From positions 1 through 38,238 of the forward strand of contig JANQGF010000185.1 in the NCBI GenBank assembly GCA_028277465.1: DNA of 38,238 nucleotides. The letters run 5' to 3'. A program made the position numbers and the translations under genes. Below the pieces are notes generated by a model. It did not search any database and was not told the origin of the DNA. It saw only the letters and a list, made by a program, of their open reading frames with translations. Position 1 is the stretch's first letter, and every line of letters starts with the position of its first letter. This document shows, one piece after another, positions 14,852-32,113 of the stretch. This DNA comes from Chromatiaceae bacterium. Lineage in GTDB: Bacteria; Pseudomonadota; Gammaproteobacteria; Chromatiales; Chromatiaceae.

Positions 14852-15328
14852 ATGGATCGGATGAGCCAGTTCGCACAGTCGCTGGAGACCTCGATCCGAC
14901 TGGCAAACCGGTTGGAAGAGACGATGCTGGAGGAGACCCGTGCCGTCGAGACGCGGGATCCCGATCAGCTGCAGCGCCTTGTTGACGAGAAGCAGGGTCT
15001 GGTGACCCAGCTCGAAGCGGAGACGCAGAGACAGAAGCGATGGGTCGAGCTCGAGCAATACCCTTTCACGCCCGCTGGAGTCCTGAAGTTCTTCTCGGCC
15101 TCTGGTGACGGCCTCGACTTGAGCGCGCGCTGGACACTCCTGAGAGACGCCATCCGGCGCTGCGATCAGTTGAACCGGGCCAATGGACGCCTCATCGAGC
15201 GCGATCGCAAACGCGTCGCCCTGTCGCTCCGTCTCCTGACCGGCGAGGATGAGACCGCGGCGACCTACGATCCGCACGGCCGCACCCGGGGCGCGGGCCC
15301 GCGCAGCCGCATGACCAGTCAGGCGTGA
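14852..15328 (+). CDS. flgN: Flagellar export chaperone FlgN
   Basis: FlgN is the cytoplasmic chaperone that delivers FlgK and FlgL to the export gate. The frame is open upstream to 14753, but the helical FlgN body starts around MDRMSQFAQSLETSIRLANR; the ATG at 14852 is chosen, with 14861 also possible. The 158-residue protein is almost all helix (LEAETQRQKRWVELEQYPF, LLRDAIRRCDQLNRANGRLI) with a disordered basic tail. It follows flgM by 183 bases and overlaps the start of the PilZ gene as TGATG. Confidence 0.88.
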   Translation: MDRMSQFAQSLETSIRLANRLEETMLEETRAVETRDPDQLQRLVDEKQGLVTQLEAETQRQKRWVELEQYPFTPAGVLKFFSASGDGLDLSARWTLLRDAIRRCDQLNRANGRLIERDRKRVALSLRLLTGEDETAATYDPHGRTRGAGPRSRMTSQA

Positions 15329-16092
15329 TGAGGGACCCGCACGAGACCCGATCGAGCCAGATCGAGGACAGCTGGGAAGCCCGGACCGATGAGGAGAGTG
15401 TGCGGGGACCGGCAAGGATCTCGGCGACCCTCGCTGAGATCAATCGGCAACTGGTGCCGGTCGCCGTGCGCCTGGACCCCGAAGGCCCCCTTTACGACTC
15501 CCTCCTGAGTCGCCTGGAGCCCGTGGAGAGACGGCTCTACTTGGATCATGTCGACCCCCTCCAAGAACCTGCTCCATTGCGTCCCGATCAGGCGATCCAA
15601 GTCTTCATCAGCCTGCGTGGGACTGCGATTCGTTTCTCGGTAACCGTCCAAGAGGTCTTGGTCGAGGACGGCAAGGGGCTCATCCGCTGCGATTATCCGA
15701 CCGAGATCCTCTATCTGAAACGACGTGAGATCTTTCGGGTCCAGCTGCCTCACTACGATCAACGCCGCGTCTGTCTACGTCATTTGGACTCGGACCACGA
15801 GATCGACGCTCAGTTACTTGACCTGTCGGTCAAGGGCTTCTCCGTGGAGCTGGAGAGCGGAAGGATCGACCCACGGCAGATCGGCACACCCTTCGAGTAC
15901 ACGAGAATGGAGCTGCCCGGCCTCAGAGGCACAGTGTCTGGCGAAGCCGTCCTGGTCAATCTGAGGCCATCCTCCAGATCGGGTTGCCTGTCGGCTGGTT
16001 TCTCCATGATCGACCTCGATCCCCAAACGGAGCGCTCACTGATGCGCGCGTCCTTGTACTATCAGCGCAGGGCGAGAAGGATGGGGGATTGA
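15328..16092 (+). CDS. ycgR: Flagellar brake protein, YcgR/FlgZ-type with PilZ domain
   Basis: A c-di-GMP receptor of the YcgR/FlgZ type, which slows or biases the motor when bound to c-di-GMP. Residues ~30-130 form the YcgR N-terminal domain. The PilZ domain follows, with the RxxxR c-di-GMP motif in LKRREIFRVQLP (about 132-143) and the DxSxxG motif in LDLSVKGFSVELE (about 170). The ATG at 15328 shares one base with the flgN stop; a GTG at 15325 is also possible. The protein has 254 residues. Placement after flgMN matches FlgZ in pseudomonads. Confidence 0.93.
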   Translation: MRDPHETRSSQIEDSWEARTDEESVRGPARISATLAEINRQLVPVAVRLDPEGPLYDSLLSRLEPVERRLYLDHVDPLQEPAPLRPDQAIQVFISLRGTAIRFSVTVQEVLVEDGKGLIRCDYPTEILYLKRREIFRVQLPHYDQRRVCLRHLDSDHEIDAQLLDLSVKGFSVELESGRIDPRQIGTPFEYTRMELPGLRGTVSGEAVLVNLRPSSRSGCLSAGFSMIDLDPQTERSLMRASLYYQRRARRMGD

Positions 16093-16125: not shown

Positions 16126-18768
16126 ATGATGCGCCCTTCCCTTCCTCCGACCTTGACTGGACTCATAGGGACGCCACAGAAGGCGACCACCCAGACCGCG
16201 TCCGACCCCCTCGGCGCGCGTCTGCAGGCCGCGCTCGCACCTGGCGCGCGGGTCGAGGTCGACCTGGTGCGGATCCACTCGCCGACTCTCGTCGACGTCC
16301 GGCTGCGACCCTCAGGCGGGAGCGGTCCCTGGTCGGCGGCCTCGGGCGTCCGGTTGGCCGAACCCTTGCCCGGCCCGGCCCCGACCGGGGTCGACAACCG
16401 ATCGGGAGAGTGTGCGACCGGCTCGTCAAAGGGCGTCGATGGGATACGCTTGCAAGCCGAGGTGGTGCGTCAGGGCCCGACACTCGTCCTGCGGACCTTG
16501 TCCGTAGCAAGTCCGGACGCCATATCATCGCCGACCGCACCTCCCGTGAAGGAGCGGGAGTGGTTGGATTCGGTGATCCGCCGACACCTGCCGCAGGCGC
16601 AGCCCTTGTTGCCCATCCTGACCACCTGGAGGGATCGATCGAGCCTCCCGGGGGATCGCGTCGGACGATCGAACGAGACCTCCCCGCTCGGGTCGAAGGC
16701 GACTCGCCAGGCCATCGAAACCCTGCTGGACCGGCTCGCGACCACGGGCGACCTGATCGATCCAGCACGTTTGTCCAGCCGCCTTCAGGCATCGGGCATC
16801 TGGCTCGAGGCCCTGACGGCATCGAGAATGACGGACCCCTTGCGACCCGTCGATCACACGTCGGACCTCAAGGCGCAGCTCTTGCGTCTTGCGGCGCAGA
16901 TTCGCTCCACCGCCCAGCTGTCCCCAGAGCTCGGCGGCAAGACCTCGACCCATCCCGCCGAGTCCGAACCGATCCGGCCGGGCGTACCCGACCCAAACCC
17001 AGCAAACTCGCGACGGCCGGCTGACCAAGGGCCGCCGGCCAATCGTGAAACGCAAGCGCCGACGACCTCGGTCAGACCAACTCAGCCGAGCACCCCTGAC
17101 CGCGGCCAGAGCCCACCGAGCCGGCCCACGGATCAGAGGTCGCCACCCACCAATCGGGAGACGCCAGCACCAGTCGTCCAGGCCAAGCCGACCCTTTTGG
17201 ACAGTCCCGACCGCGCTTCGGCGGTGCCGAACCGAGCCACCGAGCAAACGGCCCTGTCCACGAGCGATAAGACGCCACCGACGATCCAGGCGAAGCCGGC
17301 GCCCGGGGAGAATCCCAACCGCGGCCAGACCATGGCTGACCGGCCAACCGATCCGGTGACGCCGCCCACCGATCGGAAAGCCCCATCGGGCTCGCTGCGC
17401 GAAGGTCCAACCCAGCTAGATGGCCCCAGCCGCGTGCCGAGCCGATTGGCCAACCTGCCGACCCCGCCCCCAACCCGGGAGCCATCAGGGCCGACGCCCC
17501 CAACCAAGCCGGCCCCACTGGACGCCTCCAACCGCTTTTCGAGCCAACCGAGCCGGCCAGGCGACCAGCCACCAGGGCTCGCGACCCGCGAACCAACGGC
17601 GGCGACCCAGACCAGGACACCCCTCTCGGAACCACTCGACCCGGGTCGGGACCCGTCGAGCCGCGCCGCCGATCGGATCCTTCCTCCGGGTCGTCACGAA
17701 CGAGCACCACCGAGGGCGACCCTCGAGGCCGAGACTCGAGGTGTTGTCGGCCGCGACACGGATGGAGCCGTCAAGACGACCGTCAGCCAAAGATCGTCCG
17801 CCCTCGATTCAGGCCTTGCGCCTCCGCGCCCAGCCGCCAAGCAAACCCTGGAGACCGGCCCGGATCGGCCGAAGGAGCGCTCGGCGGACCCTCCCCCGAT
17901 CGAGGCCCTGGCTGGACGGGCTCTGGAGACCCGGCCGGCACCCTCCATCACGCCACTGCCAAGGGCAACGCATCCGACCCAGGATGTCGGGGAACGGCTC
18001 ATACGTTTGGCCGCGCAGATCCGAGCCGCGAACGGGCTGGCGGCTCGCGCCAGCGGGGGGACCCAAGCGCCAGCCTCGAGGCCCACCTCGGCCGCACCGG
18101 CAAGCCACCTTGGAGCCCCCTCCGTGCCATCCCGCGCTGGCGATCCAGCGGCAACCCCTGCGGACCGCGGGGCCCGAGAAGAGACCTTGGGACCCAAGCC
18201 CACCCTCGCGGGTAGCCTCCGCAGCACACCGAGCGCGCTCGGGCCAATGAAGGATGAGACGGGACACCCAAGCAGACCCGATACGCAAAGGCCGACGCTG
18301 CCTGGCGGGACAACTGCACTCGGTATGCTCGGCAAGGAGGTCGACGCCATGATCAAACAGGTCGTCACGCATCAGCTGCAGACGCTGGAATCGAGCACGG
18401 AGCAGCCGCGCTGGGTGCTGGAGCTGCCCTTCAAGACCCCTGCCGGCCTGATGGCATTGGAGGCCGAGATCGAACGGGAGCATCCGCACGGCCAACCGGA
18501 GGATGCGTGCTGGAGCATACGCCTCCGGCTCGATCTGCCGCGTCTCGGCCCCTTGTTGGTGAACCTGACGCTGCGCCAGGGGCGATTGAATGCGACCCTC
18601 TACGCCGGTGCGCAGGAGGCCGCCAGGGTCCTGGATCGGCACCTGGACGAGCTGCGCCGACAGTTGGAGGCACGGGAGATCGAGGTCGCCAGCCTGCATG
18701 CCGGGCATCGGCAAGCCGAGTCGGCACGGCCCCGACTCGACACGCCACTGGTCAGCGAGCAGGCGTGA
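16126..18768 (+). CDS. Second FliK-like protein with a proline-rich repeat region
   Basis: An 880-residue protein with a FliK-type C-terminal domain (about 763-862: WVLELPFKTPAGLMALEAEI, LRLDLPRLGPLLVNLTLRQG, LNATLYAGAQEAARVLDRHL). The N-terminal ~120 residues look folded (LGARLQAALAPGARVEVDLV). Residues 297-512 are six degenerate repeats of 34-37 residues. The segment LIRLAAQIR or LLRLAAQIR occurs on both sides of the repeats (252-260 and 625-633). It is not the canonical FliK, which is at the right edge of the window. It overlaps the next gene, an FlhB C-terminal homologue, so the pair probably acts on export specificity. The exact role is unknown to me. Confidence 0.85.
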   Translation: MMRPSLPPTLTGLIGTPQKATTQTASDPLGARLQAALAPGARVEVDLVRIHSPTLVDVRLRPSGGSGPWSAASGVRLAEPLPGPAPTGVDNRSGECATGSSKGVDGIRLQAEVVRQGPTLVLRTLSVASPDAISSPTAPPVKEREWLDSVIRRHLPQAQPLLPILTTWRDRSSLPGDRVGRSNETSPLGSKATRQAIETLLDRLATTGDLIDPARLSSRLQASGIWLEALTASRMTDPLRPVDHTSDLKAQLLRLAAQIRSTAQLSPELGGKTSTHPAESEPIRPGVPDPNPANSRRPADQGPPANRETQAPTTSVRPTQPSTPDRGQSPPSRPTDQRSPPTNRETPAPVVQAKPTLLDSPDRASAVPNRATEQTALSTSDKTPPTIQAKPAPGENPNRGQTMADRPTDPVTPPTDRKAPSGSLREGPTQLDGPSRVPSRLANLPTPPPTREPSGPTPPTKPAPLDASNRFSSQPSRPGDQPPGLATREPTAATQTRTPLSEPLDPGRDPSSRAADRILPPGRHERAPPRATLEAETRGVVGRDTDGAVKTTVSQRSSALDSGLAPPRPAAKQTLETGPDRPKERSADPPPIEALAGRALETRPAPSITPLPRATHPTQDVGERLIRLAAQIRAANGLAARASGGTQAPASRPTSAAPASHLGAPSVPSRAGDPAATPADRGAREETLGPKPTLAGSLRSTPSALGPMKDETGHPSRPDTQRPTLPGGTTALGMLGKEVDAMIKQVVTHQLQTLESSTEQPRWVLELPFKTPAGLMALEAEIEREHPHGQPEDACWSIRLRLDLPRLGPLLVNLTLRQGRLNATLYAGAQEAARVLDRHLDELRRQLEAREIEVASLHAGHRQAESARPRLDTPLVSEQA
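17014..17661 (+). repeat. Six degenerate ~36-residue proline-rich coding repeats
   Basis: Within the FliK-like protein each unit starts with R(P/A/L)xx(Q/P/L), has a T-x-R/K-E/A-x-P core (for example NRETPAP, TREPSGP, TREPTAA), and ends in a D/N-x-x-R-x(2-4)-S/D segment before the next Arg. Units begin at residues 297, 333, 370, 406, 440 and 477, with a partial seventh at 513. Lengths vary from 34 to 37, so the repeat is old or under weak constraint. Such tracts are expected in the ruler part of FliK proteins, where length may matter more than sequence. Confidence 0.7.
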
Positions 18769-19049
18769 GCAAGCACCAGCCTGAAGGAGACAGCCAAAAG
18801 GCCGTCGCGCTCCATTGGGATGGCCGCAACGCCCCGCGGATCACGGCCGCTGGCTCCGGCCTCACCGCCGATGAGATCATCCGCATCGCCATGGAGCATG
18901 GGGTTCCCCTCCAATCCGACCCGATCCTGGTCGAGGCATTGGCACAGATCCCCATCGGCGACGAGATCCCCGAAGAGCTCTATATCGCCGTCGCCGAGAT
19001 CCTGGCCTTCATCTTCATGCTGGAGGGGATCGACCCGCGTGCAGGCTGA
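18765..19049 (+). CDS. Stand-alone FlhB C-terminal domain protein (FlhX/YlqH-like)
   Basis: The 94-residue protein aligns over its whole length to the cytoplasmic C-terminal part of FlhB: VALHWDGRNAPRITAAGSGL, then a helix (ADEIIRIAMEHGVPLQSDPI) and IGDEIPEELYIAVAEILAFI. It has no membrane segments and no NPTH autocleavage motif, so it corresponds to the FlhB fragment after NPTH. The start is the GTG at 18765, overlapping the stop of the FliK-like gene as GTGA, which argues for coupled expression. In Bacillus and others such domains can partly replace the FlhB C-terminus. Its 3' end overlaps the DUF2802 gene on the other strand by 35 bases. Confidence 0.88.
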   Translation: MSKHQPEGDSQKAVALHWDGRNAPRITAAGSGLTADEIIRIAMEHGVPLQSDPILVEALAQIPIGDEIPEELYIAVAEILAFIFMLEGIDPRAG

Positions 19050-19440
19050 ACAATAGGTCCAACTCGGATTGGGTCAAACCACAGAGTTGACGGACCTCTT
19101 CACGCGTGCGCCCGTCCTGAATCAAGCGGATCGCTTGGGGATACAGCCCCTCACCGACGTCGCGCAGACGCAACTCACTCTGCTGGTCGGCCAGGCGTTC
19201 GAGCGCCCGTTTGACCGAGGACTGGACCTGGCCATGGGTGATCACATCCTCCGAGATCATCTTCATGGCACCATGCAAGGCCAGCATGGCCGTGTTCTGT
19301 CGTTGCAGCTCGCTCCGGAGCTCTCTGATCTGACGGCGCCAGACCAGAAGGGCAACCACGGCGTAGACCGCCAGCGCCATCGCGACGAGCGCCGCCGCCA
19401 GCGCCAGCCACAGCATTCCGACCCCGAGCTGGCCGTTCAT
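19015..19440 (-). CDS. DUF2802 membrane-anchored protein next to cheW
   Basis: A 141-residue protein with one N-terminal membrane helix (about 9-34, LWLALAAALVAMALAVYAVV), a short coiled coil (RRQIRELRSELQRQN), and a C-terminal helical domain with a helix-turn-helix look (AIRLIQDGRTREEVRQLCGL, then TQSELDLLFSLH). I recognise this as the DUF2802 type found downstream of cheW in polar-flagellum clusters. Function is unknown. It is the last gene of the chemotaxis unit, 67 bases after the repeat-protein gene. Confidence 0.8.
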   Translation of the reverse strand: MNGQLGVGMLWLALAAALVAMALAVYAVVALLVWRRQIRELRSELQRQNTAMLALHGAMKMISEDVITHGQVQSSVKRALERLADQQSELRLRDVGEGLYPQAIRLIQDGRTREEVRQLCGLTQSELDLLFSLHAGRSPPA

Positions 19441-19507: not shown

Positions 19508-19906
19508 TCAGGCATAGTCGTCCACCAGACCTCGGCGACGCCTCGGCATAGGTGGCGAAGTAACCTCTCGGTCGCTCGGGCCGCGGGTCTCGCGCGATTC
19601 TTCCTGAACGCGTCGATCGGCTCGACGGCGGTCATGGACGCGACGCTCCCCCGAGCGTCGCTCCTCGAGTCGTCGCTCCTGCGACAGACGCGCACTGACG
19701 CGGCGCTCGTCCGAGCGACGCTCCTCGGAACGACGCTCCGACTTGCGGCGCTCCCCCGAGCGTCGCTCTCCGGAGCGACGCTCGAGCGGACGAAGCCGGC
19801 GGCGAACACCCAGTTGCTGTGCCAGACTCCGATCCTGCTCATCGCTCATGGAGCGCGACGGATTCGGTGAATGCACTGGCTTGAGTGGCTTGATCGGATC
19901 GCTCAT
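19508..19906 (-). CDS. Arginine-rich pentapeptide-repeat protein of the chemotaxis operon
   Basis: I do not recognise the family. The start at 19906 is fixed by AGGTGG about 7 bases upstream and gives 132 residues. The N-terminus is MSDPIKPLKPVHSPNPS. Residues 42-101 are twelve tandem pentapeptides of the form (E/D)RRxx, for example ERRSG, ERRKS, ERRSE, ERRVH, DRRRA, with one degenerate unit (ARLSQ). The C-terminus is basic, then acidic (PRRRRGLVDDYA). It has no signal peptide, membrane helix or Cys. Its neighbours cheW and the DUF2802 gene suggest a role in chemosensory or flagellar pole organisation, but this is only a guess from context. Confidence 0.72.
   Translation of the reverse strand: MSDPIKPLKPVHSPNPSRSMSDEQDRSLAQQLGVRRRLRPLERRSGERRSGERRKSERRSEERRSDERRVSARLSQERRLEERRSGERRVHDRRRADRRVQEESRETRGPSDREVTSPPMPRRRRGLVDDYA
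19604..19783 (-). repeat. 15-bp coding minisatellite, 12 units
   Basis: The DNA encoding the (E/D)RRxx pentapeptides has a 15-base period for 180 bases. Units differ at synonymous sites and at the two variable codons, so the array is not freshly expanded. Its structure should allow slippage and length changes in multiples of five residues without breaking the frame. Confidence 0.8.
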
Positions 19907-20049: not shown

Positions 20050-20532
20050 TCAAAGCTCGCGGATGGCCGCCCACTCCTCATCTGACAGAAGCTTATTGAG
20101 ATCGATCAGGATGGTCAGTCCCTCGTCGCTACTGGTCACACCGAGGATGAAGCGACTCGTCTGATCGCTACCGACGGCCGGCGCCGGTTCGACCGCATCG
20201 GGCGAGATCTGCACCACCTCTGCCACCGAATCGACCAGGATGCCGATATTCTGGTTATCGACATCGATGATCACGATCCGGGAGGCGTCATCGGGCTCAC
20301 GTTGGGGAAGCGACATCCGGCGGCGTGCGTCGATGACGGTCACGACGTCGCCTCGCAGATTGATGATACCCAGGATGTAGTCGGGCACACCCGGCACCGG
20401 GGCGATGTCGGTGAGCTTCAAGACCTCCTGGACCTGAAGCACGTCGATGGCATAGGTCTCCTCCGCCAAGCTGAAGGTCACATAGGCCGACGAGGCCCCT
20501 GTCGTCTGCTCTTGCGAATCTACTGCGGTCAT
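20050..20532 (-). CDS. cheW: Chemotaxis coupling protein CheW
   Basis: CheW links chemoreceptors to CheA. The start at 20532 is chosen because GAGGAAG lies 3 bases upstream and it removes an unlikely N-terminal extension, leaving 160 residues. The fold markers are VTFSLAEETYAIDVLQVQEV near residues 18-37, ILGIINLRGDVVTVIDARRR near 60-80, and VDNQNIGILVDSVAEVVQIS. It follows motD by 175 bases and leads the repeat-protein and DUF2802 genes. Confidence 0.95.
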   Translation of the reverse strand: MTAVDSQEQTTGASSAYVTFSLAEETYAIDVLQVQEVLKLTDIAPVPGVPDYILGIINLRGDVVTVIDARRRMSLPQREPDDASRIVIIDVDNQNIGILVDSVAEVVQISPDAVEPAPAVGSDQTSRFILGVTSSDEGLTILIDLNKLLSDEEWAAIREL

Positions 20533-20625
20533 TGCTTCCTCGCGGTTCTCTGCAAAACCTCTGGTTGATCTAATGATACCGAGCACTCAGCCATTTCTGT
20601 GCGTGGCAGGATGCCCCACTAGGTG

Positions 20626-27198: not shown

Positions 27199-27945
27199 TC
27201 ATGAGTCGGATCCTTCCTGGATCCAAAGACTCAAGCGCACGCGCAGACGATGTAGCGCCTGACTGCGAATCTGGCTCACACGCGATTCGGTGACACCAAT
27301 GACGGCACCAATCTCTCTCAGATTGAGCTCTTCGTCGTAATAGAGGGCCAGCACCAGCCGCTCCTTTTCCGGCAGGGCCGCCAACGACTCCGCGAGGGCG
27401 GTCCGAAACTGCCCTCGCTCGACCTGTTCGCTCGGCGCCGCCTCATCGCCCGGCAAAACACGATCCGGGTCCATCCCTTCGGCGAAGAGATCCTCCAGAC
27501 CCAGAATCTGCGCGCCCGCGGCATCGCGCAGCATTCCATGATACTCGTCCAGCGTGACCTCGAGCACCGAGGCGATCTCGCGATCCTTGGCCGCGCGGCC
27601 CTCGCGCGACTCGACCTCCCGAATCGCCTCGGCAATCCGACGGCTGTTGCGGTGAACCGAGCGCGGCGTCCAATCGGCACGCCGCAGCTCGTCGATCATG
27701 GCACCCCGGATACGAATCCCGGCATAGGTCGCGAAGGTCGCACCCTGCCCGGACTGAAACTGACGCGCCGCCTCGATCAGGCCCACCATTCCGGACTGCA
27801 CGAGATCCTCGATCTGGACCGAGGCAGGCAGACGCGCCGCCAGATGGTGGGCGATTCGTTGCACCAGGTCGATGTGTGTCGCAACCAGGTCTCCTGCTCG
27901 ATCAGCAATCCCCGGATAACCAGGCAATGAGCGATTCTGGACCAT
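27199..27945 (-). CDS. fliA: Flagellar sigma factor FliA (sigma-28)
   Basis: FliA directs RNA polymerase to late flagellar and chemotaxis promoters, such as those proposed here before flgM and flgK. The 248-residue protein has region 2 ([40 protein letters not shown]), region 3 ([15 protein letters not shown]) and region 4 ([20 protein letters not shown], then [20 protein letters not shown]). Its ATG shares one base with the flhG stop (TGATG), so it is translationally linked to flhG. FlgM, at 14363, is its antagonist. Confidence 0.96.
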
Positions 27946-28772
27946 CAGGCACTTTGTAACATCCGTTCAACGAAAAAGCCGATGCCACCCGTGTCGGTGT
28001 CGGCCGCGGTCCAACGCTCCGCCTGCCTGGCCAGCCCGGCGAAGGCGCGCCCCGCCGGGCTTCCGGGAAAGAGCCCCACGACCGGTGCCCGCCGCTGGAC
28101 GGCGCGTCGCACATGCTCGTCCATGGGAATGATACCGGATGCATCCAGCAGCACGTCAGGGAGATAGCGAGAACAGACCGATGACAGCTTCTGAAGCAGG
28201 CGCCGCCCGGAATCCGCGTCGCGCACCATATTGCAGATCACGCGAAACCGTCTCAGCCCATAGTTCTGATGCAGGACCTTGATGAGGGCATAGGCATCGG
28301 TCAAAGACGCAGGCTCGTCGCAGACCACCACGGAGACGTCCTGGACCGCCCGGCAGAAACTCGTCACCGAGTCCTGAACGCCGGCGGCCGTATCCACGAT
28401 CAAGACGTCCAGGGGCTTGTCGTAGGAGCTGAAGGCGCGAATCAGACCCGTGTGTTCGGCCGGACTGAGATTGGCCATGGAGCCGATGCCCGAAGACGAA
28501 GGAACCAACAGGATTCCTTCCGGACCCGGCACCAGGATATCCTCCAGGCCGTCCGCCCTGCCGGCGACCAGGTCATGCAAGGTCTTGCTCGGGCGCAATC
28601 CGAGCAGAATGTCCGCATTCGCCAGACCGAGATCGGCGTCGAAGAGCATCACGCTCCGACCCATCCGGGCGAGAGCGACCGACAGGTTGACCGCGATATT
28701 GGTCTTACCGACGCCGCCTTTCCCGCTCGCGATCGCGATACTCTTGAGCCGCCGGCTCCTAATGGGCTGCAT
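27945..28772 (-). CDS. flhG: Flagellar number regulator FlhG (FleN), MinD-like ATPase
   Basis: FlhG (FleN) limits flagellar number by restraining the FleQ-type activator and FlhF. The 275-residue MinD/ParA-type ATPase has the deviant Walker A motif (IASGKGGVGKTNIAVNLSVA), switch regions (LFDADLGLANADILLGLRPS and LIVDTAAGVQDSVTSFCRAV), and family features such as YALIKVLHQNYGLRRF. Its first 14 bases overlap the end of flhF and its last base overlaps fliA, so flhF-flhG-fliA form a tightly coupled trio. Confidence 0.95.
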   Translation of the reverse strand: MQPIRSRRLKSIAIASGKGGVGKTNIAVNLSVALARMGRSVMLFDADLGLANADILLGLRPSKTLHDLVAGRADGLEDILVPGPEGILLVPSSSGIGSMANLSPAEHTGLIRAFSSYDKPLDVLIVDTAAGVQDSVTSFCRAVQDVSVVVCDEPASLTDAYALIKVLHQNYGLRRFRVICNMVRDADSGRRLLQKLSSVCSRYLPDVLLDASGIIPMDEHVRRAVQRRAPVVGLFPGSPAGRAFAGLARQAERWTAADTDTGGIGFFVERMLQSA

Positions 28773-29973
28773 GCAGACGTTTCCTGAAGGGCACTACAGA
28801 CTCCAATACCATATTCTCGGGCGCAGTTCGAGTCTGTGATCTGTATGGCACCCTGCTCGGCGGAGCCTCCTCGCTCGGGGCCATCTCAACAGCGACCGGC
28901 CTGCGCGGCGCACGCGCCGGCTCGCCCAGCGCGAGCCGTGTCAGATGGAGTGTATCCACCTTGTGAAAATCGTCGTCGACACGCTGTCCGTCACTATAGA
29001 AGACCAACCCGAGGCGCTGCTCCAAGAGGACCGAGAGGGTTTCGCCCAACTGTTCCGCCTCATCGACCTTCGTCAACACCAGTGCCGAGGGCTCGCTGCA
29101 TCGAAAGGCCTCGATCGTCTGTCGCAACACGCTCGCCTGATGATTGGCCGCGATCACCAACCAGGTCTGCAGGGCGACCTGGCTGCGGATCCGCGCGAAG
29201 AGTCGACGCTCCGCCGCGTCACGCGCCGTCTGACCCTCGGTGTCGATGAGCACGAGTTTCCCACCAGCTGCCCGACCGGACAAGGCGGCCAGGTCGCGCT
29301 CGCTCTCCAGGAGCTGCACCGGAACGCCCGCCATTTGCCCAAAGGCCTGCAGCTGCTTGTAGGCCCCGATGCGCTGGCGGTCGAGCGTCACCAGGCTCAC
29401 AGCGTCACGCCCCATCCGCCGGATCTGGCGCAGCGCGATCCGGTTGAGGGTCGTCGTCTTACCCACGCCGGTGGTACCCACCAGCGCGAGCATGCCGCCC
29501 TGCTCCAGGACGGTGGGCTGGGCGGTGGCGATCGAGGCCGAGAGACGCGCACGCAGACGTGACCAAGCGGTCTCGGCGGAGGTGTCCTCCAAGACGCTCC
29601 CGGCCAGGCTGCGGGCAAGCCGGTCGCTGAAACCGCATTGGAGCAGACGCTCGACACACTCGGCGGCCAAGGGATGGCGCGCCGCCCACTGGTCTCGCTC
29701 ATTCAATGCCCGCTGCTGAAGGAGGAGGTTGCGCAAGTCGCACAACTCGCGACGCATGGCGGCCAGCTCGGGATCGACGGGCAGGGCCGAGTTGGCCTCG
29801 GGCGTGGGATGCTCGGCCGAGGTCGCGCCCGAGACCGGCTCGGTCGCGGCGATGACCTCCAGGACACCATCGACGCGGCGATTGGAGAGAATGATCGCGT
29901 CGGACCCCTGATGCTCGCGCACCTGCCGCATTGCATCGCGCATGTCCCGCGCCCGATATCGCCTTACATTCAT
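28759..29973 (-). CDS. flhF: Polar flagellar placement GTPase FlhF
   Basis: FlhF is an SRP-type GTPase that places the flagellum at the pole. The open frame runs upstream into flhA, but MNVRRYRARDMRDAMRQVRE at 29973, with GAGGAG 8 bases upstream, is the true start (404 residues). The NG domain has the P-loop (VGTTGVGKTTTLNRIAL), TLDRQRIGAYKQLQAFG, the G3 segment LVLIDTEGQTARD, and LVLTKVDEAEQLGETL. The G3 motif reads DTEG where SRP GTPases normally have DTAG. FlhF and FlhG are the hallmark of polar flagellation. Confidence 0.95.
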   Translation of the reverse strand: MNVRRYRARDMRDAMRQVREHQGSDAIILSNRRVDGVLEVIAATEPVSGATSAEHPTPEANSALPVDPELAAMRRELCDLRNLLLQQRALNERDQWAARHPLAAECVERLLQCGFSDRLARSLAGSVLEDTSAETAWSRLRARLSASIATAQPTVLEQGGMLALVGTTGVGKTTTLNRIALRQIRRMGRDAVSLVTLDRQRIGAYKQLQAFGQMAGVPVQLLESERDLAALSGRAAGGKLVLIDTEGQTARDAAERRLFARIRSQVALQTWLVIAANHQASVLRQTIEAFRCSEPSALVLTKVDEAEQLGETLSVLLEQRLGLVFYSDGQRVDDDFHKVDTLHLTRLALGEPARAPRRPVAVEMAPSEEAPPSRVPYRSQTRTAPENMVLESVVPFRKRLHAAH

Positions 29974-29995
29974 TCGGTCTGCTCCTCTCTGCCAA

Positions 29996-32113
29996 TCATG
30001 CCCGCGCTCGGGCAGTATCGCCTTCGCCCACGGTCGCAACGACCCGAATCCGCCGGTTGTCCGGGATCTCGGTGAATGCCAGGACCGTCAGGTTGCGCAC
30101 CGCGCCCCGCAGCCAGCTCGCGATCCAGGACCGGATCTCCGGGGCCACCACCAGCACCGAGGCCAACCCCTCGGCCTCCTGGCGCTTCGCGGCATCGGTC
30201 ACCGAGCGTTGCACCCGCTCCGCGAGTCCAGGCTCGATGCCGATGATCTCGCCCTGACTCCCCTGCAAGGATTTATGCAAGAGCTGCTCCAGCGACGGAT
30301 CCAAGGCGATGAGGGGGAGCTCCTCGTCCGGTCCGATCAGGTCTTGGACGATCGAGCGGGCGAGGGCGACCCGAACGGCGGCGGTCAAGGTGGCAGGATC
30401 CTGACTCTTGACCGAGCGCTCCGCCAAGGTCTCGGCAATGGTACGCAGATCGCGGATCGAGACCTGTTCTGCCAAGAGATTCTGCAGGACCTTCAGGATC
30501 CCGCCCAGCGACAGCGCCTTGGAAGAGAGGAGATTCTCGACCAGCTTCGGCGAGCGCCTGGCCAGTTGATCGAGCAGGTGCTGCACCTCCTCATGCCCGA
30601 TCAGACGGTGCGCGTTCTCACGGAACAACTGGGAAAGATGGGTCGCGATGACCGTCGCCGCGTCGACCACCGTATAGCCGGCCGCCTGGGCGGACTCGCG
30701 ATCGGCGGGGTCGATCCAGAGTGCATCCAGATTGAAGGTCGGGTCCTTGGTCGGCGTCCCCGCCACGGTCCCGAAGACCTGGCCTGGATCGATCGCCAAC
30801 TCGCGGTCGGGAAAGACCTCGGCCTCGGCCAGGGTGACGCCCAGCAGCGAGATCCGGTAATGATTGGGACCCAGCTCCAGATTGTCGCGGATATGCACGG
30901 GTTGGATCAGAAAGCCGAGCTCCTGCGAGAGCTTGCGCCGAATGCCCTTGATCCGTCCCATGAGCTGGCCATCCTGACTGCGGTCGACCAAGGGGATCAA
31001 GCGATAGCCGACCTCCAAGGAAACCAGGTCGATCGGTGGGACATCGTCCCAGGAGAGGTCGCGATCCTCGGGCGCGGGGAGCTCGACCCCTTCGGGCAGG
31101 CGCTCGACCACCTCGGGGCCCGGCGCGACCCCTTTCCGCCCGGTGAGATAGCCCGCGCCAGCGAGCATGGAGGACAACCCCAGAAAGACCAGGTTCGGCA
31201 TCCCGGGGATGAGACCCAGGATGCCGATGACACCCGCCGCCACATAGAGCACGCGGGGATTGGAGAACATCTGACCGAAGACCTGCTCGCCCATGTCCTG
31301 CGCCGAGGAGGCGCGGGTGACGATGATGGCCGTGGCCGAGGAGAGCAAGAGCGACGGCAGCTGAGCGACCAGCCCGTCACCGATGCTCAGGAGGACATAG
31401 TTGTTCGCCGCATCGGCGAAGGACATGCCGTGCTGCGAGGTCCCGATGACGATCCCGCCGAGGATATTGATGAAGAGGATGAGAATGCCGGCCACGGCGT
31501 CGCCGCGCACGAACTTGCTGGCGCCGTCCATGGAGCCGTAGAAGTCGGCCTCCTCGGCCACGTTCTCGCGCCGCTTGCGCGCCTCGTCCTGCGAGATGAG
31601 CCCGGCGTTCAGGTCGGCGTCGATGGCCATCTGTTTGCCGGGCATGGCATCCAGGGTGAACCGGGCGCTGACCTCCGAGACCCGTCCGGCCCCCTTGGTC
31701 ACGACGACGAAATTGATGATGACCAGGATGGCGAAGACGACCAGACCGATCGCGAAGTTCCCACCCAGAACGAACTCGCCGAAGGCCTCGATGACCTGCC
31801 CCGCGGCGTCCGTCCCGCTGCCTCCGTGGAGCAGGATCACCCGGGTCGAGGCCACGTTGAGGGCGAGGCGCAGCAGGGTCGCCAGCAACAAGACCGTGGG
31901 AAAGGCCGCGAAATCCACCGGCCGCGGGGTATAGACGGCCACCATGACCACGACGAGCGAGAGCGCGATATTGAAGGTGAAGAGCAAGTCGAGCGCCAGC
32001 GGCGGCAGCGGCAGCACCAGCATGGAGAGCAGCGCGACCAGCAGCAGGGGCGTCACCAGACCCGCGCGACCGATCCCGCCGAGACGCTCCGCGACGCCAG
32101 TACCCCGTTCCAC
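29996..32113 (-). CDS. flhA: Flagellar type III export gate protein FlhA
   Basis: FlhA is the nonameric export-gate protein of the inner membrane. Of its 705 residues about 1-330 carry eight membrane helices with the conserved FHIPEP-type cytoplasmic loop region (GAGRVSEVSARFTLDAMPGK, QMAIDADLNAGLISQDEARK). The rest is the cytoplasmic ring domain (YTVVDAATVIATHLSQLFR, AEQVSIRDLRTIAETLAERS) that docks chaperone-substrate complexes. The start is a GTG with GGAGGT 5 bases upstream and 2 bases after the flhB stop. Confidence 0.97.
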   Translation of the reverse strand: MERGTGVAERLGGIGRAGLVTPLLLVALLSMLVLPLPPLALDLLFTFNIALSLVVVMVAVYTPRPVDFAAFPTVLLLATLLRLALNVASTRVILLHGGSGTDAAGQVIEAFGEFVLGGNFAIGLVVFAILVIINFVVVTKGAGRVSEVSARFTLDAMPGKQMAIDADLNAGLISQDEARKRRENVAEEADFYGSMDGASKFVRGDAVAGILILFINILGGIVIGTSQHGMSFADAANNYVLLSIGDGLVAQLPSLLLSSATAIIVTRASSAQDMGEQVFGQMFSNPRVLYVAAGVIGILGLIPGMPNLVFLGLSSMLAGAGYLTGRKGVAPGPEVVERLPEGVELPAPEDRDLSWDDVPPIDLVSLEVGYRLIPLVDRSQDGQLMGRIKGIRRKLSQELGFLIQPVHIRDNLELGPNHYRISLLGVTLAEAEVFPDRELAIDPGQVFGTVAGTPTKDPTFNLDALWIDPADRESAQAAGYTVVDAATVIATHLSQLFRENAHRLIGHEEVQHLLDQLARRSPKLVENLLSSKALSLGGILKVLQNLLAEQVSIRDLRTIAETLAERSVKSQDPATLTAAVRVALARSIVQDLIGPDEELPLIALDPSLEQLLHKSLQGSQGEIIGIEPGLAERVQRSVTDAAKRQEAEGLASVLVVAPEIRSWIASWLRGAVRNLTVLAFTEIPDNRRIRVVATVGEGDTARARA

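Follow-up and report, generated by a model that had tools for sequence, protein, structure and literature searches.

The DUF2802 protein FipA, described in 2024, binds FlhF and, together with HubP, helps to bring it to the flagellar pole (PMC11620751). The way in which FipA, HubP/FimV and FlhF cooperate has been stated to be open (PMC11236974, PMC12826062). The FlhF/FlhG/FipA/HubP module is already known; a family of small proteins encoded beside fipA in many bacteria with polar flagella, and an apparent arginine-rich expansion of it in purple sulfur bacteria, were undescribed in the literature and databases that we searched. Here, we analysed a 38,238-nucleotide stretch of DNA from a Chromatiaceae bacterium (referred to as the window) that encodes such an arginine-repeat protein.

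This protein resembles FipA in being encoded in the same cluster, by a neighbouring gene with strong co-occurrence, but they are not homologues, the membrane segment and DUF2802 of FipA both being absent from the arginine-repeat protein. The HubP/FimV polar landmarks offer a second comparison, as scaffolds of the pole module with long charged, low-complexity regions; unlike the arginine-repeat protein, however, they lie in the membrane, contain LysM and TPR domains and have acidic regions, and there is no sequence relation. Single charged helices (SAH) serve as rigid connectors (PMC5812594). High charge, a monomeric-looking helix, opposite charges at i/i+3 and i/i+4, and few hydrophobic residues are common to these linkers and to the arginine-repeat protein, whereas the latter has a unit of five with frequent glycine and serine, and its helix is a prediction. 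Pentapeptide repeat proteins (PF00805) share the period of five and a weak match in an antisense frame, but that match lies on the wrong strand and is not conserved.

The arginine-repeat gene and its neighbourhood

The relevant features of the window are:

19508..19906, minus strand: whole gene, 132 aa + stop (translation, ribosome site, orthologues, dN/dS)
19829..19906, minus strand: N-terminal conserved segment, residues 1-26, MSDPIKPLxPV...PSR...DEQDR (alignments)
19604..19783, minus strand: linker of 12 pentads, residues 42-101 (11 (E/D)RRxx + one ARLSQ)
19511..19543, minus strand: C-terminal conserved tail, residues 122-132, RRRRGLVDDYA (alignments, tail table)
19015..19440, minus strand: fipA (DUF2802), downstream neighbour, with N-terminal membrane segment + DUF2802 (PF10975, E 6.5e-19)
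20050..20541, minus strand: cheW, upstream neighbour (PF01584, E 1.1e-40)
27945..30039, minus strand: flhF + flhG, pole-positioning GTPase + ATPase (SRP54 + MinD/ParA domains, flhA-flhF-flhG-fliA order)

The minus-strand frame translates as MSDPIKPLKPVHSPNPSRSMSDEQDRSLAQQLGVRRRLRPLERRSGERRSGERRKSERRSEERRSDERRVSARLSQERRLEERRSGERRVHDRRRADRRVQEESRETRGPSDREVTSPPMPRRRRGLVDDYA, and its ATG at 19906 is preceded, at a distance of 5 nt, by a good ribosome site, GAGGTGG. The gene lies between cheW and the DUF2802 gene, as the preliminary description had placed it, and the PF01584 and PF10975 matches bear this out. The cluster runs in the order fliP, fliR, flhB, flhA, flhF, flhG, fliA, cheY, cheZ, cheA, cheB, mot genes, cheW, arginine-repeat gene and DUF2802, where cheB and a MotA-like gene were identified by reading the sequence. 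On the plus strand, 15325-16092 encodes a YcgR-like PilZN-PilZ protein near the flagellar genes, and the gene at 16126-18768 (880 codons) is FliK-like, its long middle part being rich in proline, threonine and serine. A further plus-strand open reading frame (18507-19049), which by eye has a FlhB C-terminal-like end, converges on the 3' end of fipA with an overlap of about 35 bases.

Twelve (E/D)RRxx pentapeptides had been reported for this gene. Twelve in-frame units are indeed there and all share one register, but strictly only 11 fit the motif, unit 7 being ARLSQ; a degenerate xRLxx unit is kept in most relatives. When the protein was shuffled 20,000 times, a mean of 3.6 and a maximum of 8 RR pairs fell in a single mod-5 register, compared with 12 in the actual sequence. 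The array DNA is degenerate (66% matches at period 15) and its RR pairs are spelled with varied codons, which rules out a fresh slippage array. No Pfam or NCBIfam family matched the protein, and searches of the PDB sequences and of a phage collection returned no match to it. Elsewhere in the class, RR arrays were found only as short, chance-like matches in unrelated proteins from which the conserved ends were absent. In its own genome the gene stands alone, with no second protein having an (I/V)D(D/E)YA tail.

The arginine-repeat gene is present in about 28 of 170 genomes of the order, within Chromatiaceae, and the matches are full-length. The two ends and the arrays recur in orthologues from Thiobaca, Chromatium, Thiocystis, Thiorhodococcus, Imhoffiella and Marichromatium. 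The preliminary description had proposed a count of repeats across strains; across the Chromatiaceae orthologues, nearly all have 10-12 RR units, and two relatives have shrunk arrays of five (L041) and two (L042) RR units. Across the arrays, E/D occupies position a of the pentad at 91%, R position b at 99% and R position c at 93%, and positions d and e drift. Pairwise dN/dS among the orthologues was 0.13-0.40. By the preliminary description, a lack of homologues beside cheW/DUF2802 in related genomes, or variation that breaks the frame, would have marked the gene as spurious; with relatives in that position and the frame kept, the outcome favours a real gene in the minus-strand frame 19508-19906, one that purple sulfur bacteria conserve.

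On the plus strand, the antisense frame 19634-19870 gave a weak pentapeptide-repeat match (PF00805, 18.4 bits, slightly below the cut-off of 20.2), from which it might be argued that this frame is the real gene and the arginine frame its mirror. Because the three antisense frames are broken by stops in many orthologues, the match was discounted and the candidate rejected. The conserved ends, the ribosome site, the direction of the operon and dN/dS all favour the minus strand, and we consider a plus-strand gene to be barely conceivable. Arrays of this type also occur elsewhere: an unrelated protein (L053 of genome G394, 1324-1695) has two blocks of (E/D)RRxx pentads, so such arrays arise more than once.

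AlphaFold predicted a helix at residues 20-38 and one helix spanning residues 46-107 (from 10 sequences, with a pLDDT of 74-81 across the array and a pTM of only 0.24). According to this model, the array probably forms a single charged helix. Every acidic residue follows the arginine pair of the unit before it at distances of 3 and 4; R-to-E pairs number 10 at i+4 and 12 at i+3, about twice the 5.5 and 5.6 found in shuffles. The repeat core has 12% hydrophobic residues, in agreement with the earlier judgement that it is not a coiled coil. Glycine makes up 28% of pentad position e, which counts against a rigid helix. Net charge is +11 for the array core and +15 for the whole protein.

A short protein family encoded beside fipA

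Directly upstream of fipA, a short open reading frame of about 55-65 codons (some 57 residues) was found at 57 of 90 loci sampled across the gammaproteobacteria (class-wide loci). These represent 37 of the 57 GTDB families sampled, and the small gene is thereby an obvious missing candidate for the pole machinery. Among same-order loci, 61 of 64 have the small gene upstream of fipA, a count that takes in the repeat-expanded forms. Its absence from the remaining 33 class-wide loci shows that FipA can work without the small protein. In V. parahaemolyticus, the cheW and fipA tags are consecutive (vp2225/vp2224), so there is no annotated gene between them. No fusion of CheW or FipA with the small protein was noticed in the ORF listings of the loci. 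Between loci that have the small gene and loci that lack it, FipA residues differed only weakly (one Q, 82% vs 42%), and relatedness could explain the differences.

The consensus of the short family is M-(A/P/S)-(D/E)-I-x4-P-(I/L)-x-P-x-W-P-x-R-P, followed by a charged linker and (P)H(I/V)D(D/E)Y(A/V), where the conservation of the tail is partly ascertained because the tail helped to define the small gene. As a control, 900 bases of each locus were scanned on both strands; the short frame with its tail motif was found on the sense strand at 147 of 189 loci and on the opposite strand at none of the 189. As a second control, a full-length profile of 30 short forms was run, blind to position, on 276 whole genomes (E<=1e-3). 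Of the 51 genomes that it matched, 50 have fipA as well, and 49 matches adjoin fipA; since 30 of the matched sequences built the profile or resemble its builders, the number itself is not entirely independent, in contrast to the specificity for genomes with fipA. The sole non-adjacent match in a fipA-bearing genome was in G450, whose fipA sits where a contig ends. Neither Pfam nor NCBIfam has an entry for the family, and no description of it was found in the literature searched.

The linker varies widely in length and composition within the family. In one short form (L123 of genome G440), an 18-base repeat encoding PSAGVE, present at 843-946 in about six perfect copies, has lengthened it. This is an independent, recent linker expansion, and its repeat number is possibly variable between strains.

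Relation of the expanded form to the short family

The arginine-repeat protein is, as judged from sequence comparisons, very likely homologous to the short fipA-linked family. Because the profile evidence was negative or weak, this claim rests on the ends, synteny and intermediates. The short-form profile had no match in the window's own genome at E<=0.05, and a comparison of expanded and short profiles gave a probability of 42%, weak because the two forms match at their ends alone. In synteny, both genes have the same position and strand relative to fipA. At the C-terminus, GLVDDYA of the arginine-repeat protein fits the (I/V)D(D/E)Y(A/V) of the short family. At the N-terminus, the short-family counterpart of residues 1-26 is M-x-E-I-x-x-x-x-P-I-K-P-x-W-P-x-R-R-D-E; PIKPLKPV...DEQDR is similar to PIKPAWPVRRDE of a same-order short form, and PIKPLKPV...PSR...DEQDR resembles the same-order PIKPxWPVRRDE, with the W lost and in the same weak profile alignment. 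Intermediates between the forms comprise L122 of another family (MVDELQPDRTVRPVHTTVPGRRLSDDHDRD...RRPRRGLIDDYA), with Chromatiaceae ends and no array, the two shrunk arrays, and L213 with RRPIIDEYV.

The preliminary description had suggested that the protein might be a repeat-expanded version of a smaller DUF2802 neighbour, with the MSDPIKP start and the DDYA end as the conserved parts. Both suggestions held up: short forms with the same tail occur next to DUF2802 in dozens of families, L042, L041 and L122 are reduced or unexpanded, and the ends are kept in orthologues and short forms alike. That the Chromatiaceae gene is a lengthened version of the short fipA neighbour is thus supported at the level of sequence. 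The Chromatiaceae form also amounts to a natural experiment in linker lengthening, in which the ends are kept and the spacer has been replaced by a precise array.

A candidate tether at the flagellar pole

We lean towards a role for the protein in the pole module rather than in another process. Within that module (FipA, FlhF/FlhG and HubP/FimV), a bivalent tether or adaptor for pole positioning is the reading that we favour, and we give it slightly less than an even chance. The sequences show a real, conserved gene, its expansion and its linkage to fipA; from these we infer the tether role, the partners, the helix and the localisation to the pole. In such a scheme, the two short linear motifs, the proline-rich start and the (I/V)D(D/E)Y(A/V) tail, would each dock on one partner, and the charged linker between them would set reach and charge. 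The Chromatiaceae linker, in which 11-13 arginine pentads have taken over (about 60 residues, charge +11), would be a longer, stiffer and more basic spacer. More tentatively, the protein may be a widely conserved and so far overlooked part of the FipA/FlhF module for pole positioning of the flagellum: a two-motif tether of about 57 residues, which purple sulfur bacteria have turned into a charged helical ruler.

The position of the gene directly after cheW, in the window and at most loci, could instead point to the chemosensory array as partner, with the protein joining clusters of CheW/CheA to either the pole or the site of the flagellum. At four loci (L097, L127, L140 and L141), however, the small gene lies beside fipA with no cheW just upstream, and at many others cheW touches fipA and the small gene is absent. 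These loci favour fipA over cheW as the partner, and we regard the array as a quite unlikely one. The earlier label of chemotaxis protein is likewise too narrow, since the gene, although adjoined by cheW, tracks the flagellar pole determinant fipA more closely. FlhG can bind the N-terminal EIDALL segment of FliM, and the FliM of the window carries LSQDEIDALL. The tail might therefore act on FlhG/FlhF and not on FipA, for example by imitating this segment, and tune flagellar number. Consistent with this, G233 has an intact small gene ending in RRHVDEYA directly after fliA with no adjoining cheW (L224, 2381-2539), and G409 has a frameshifted remnant opposite flhF/flhG, whose start is out of frame with its HIDEYA tail (L225, ~2790-2970); no fipA (DUF2802) was found in either genome. 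Yet the likeness of HIDEYA to EIDAL amounts to two residues and may be due to chance, and the gene tracks fipA in nearly all genomes, so that an action on FlhG/FlhF seems distinctly improbable. In G004, G167 and G168 (L184, L185 and L186), the arginine-repeat gene lies between genes that by eye appear to be polA and ttcA, and cheW and fipA remain adjacent to each other; in G169 it is also distant from fipA. With G233, G409 and the trio of G004, G167 and G168 as exceptions, the dependence of the small gene on fipA is strong but not absolute.

The tether proposal treats the pentads as a spacer. The preliminary description had suggested an extended arginine-rich scaffold for acidic protein surfaces, nucleic acid or phospholipids, whereas AlphaFold models the repeats as one long charged helix. 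The charge of the pentads might alternatively make them a multivalent basic surface that binds an acidic part of HubP/FimV, acidic polar lipids, nucleic acid or polyphosphate, which would accord with the FimV of the same genome, acidic beyond its membrane segment, and with the cytoplasmic regions of FimV/HubP, which are reported to be acidic (PMC12918733). We consider this unlikely, as one acidic residue per unit offsets the arginines and the i+3/i+4 pattern favours internal pairing; moreover, the short relatives have a median net charge of +1 yet the same tail, which argues that basic binding was not the ancestral role. Nor do we think it likely that the expansion is neutral, a low-complexity insertion tolerated in a disordered linker and with no role of its own. 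The wide variation of short-family linkers, the recent perfect repeat expansion in L123 and the shrunk arrays of L041 and L042 would all be compatible with neutrality, but the unit number stays at 10-12 across about 27 genomes, RR is almost invariant while the adjoining positions drift, and dN/dS is well below 1.
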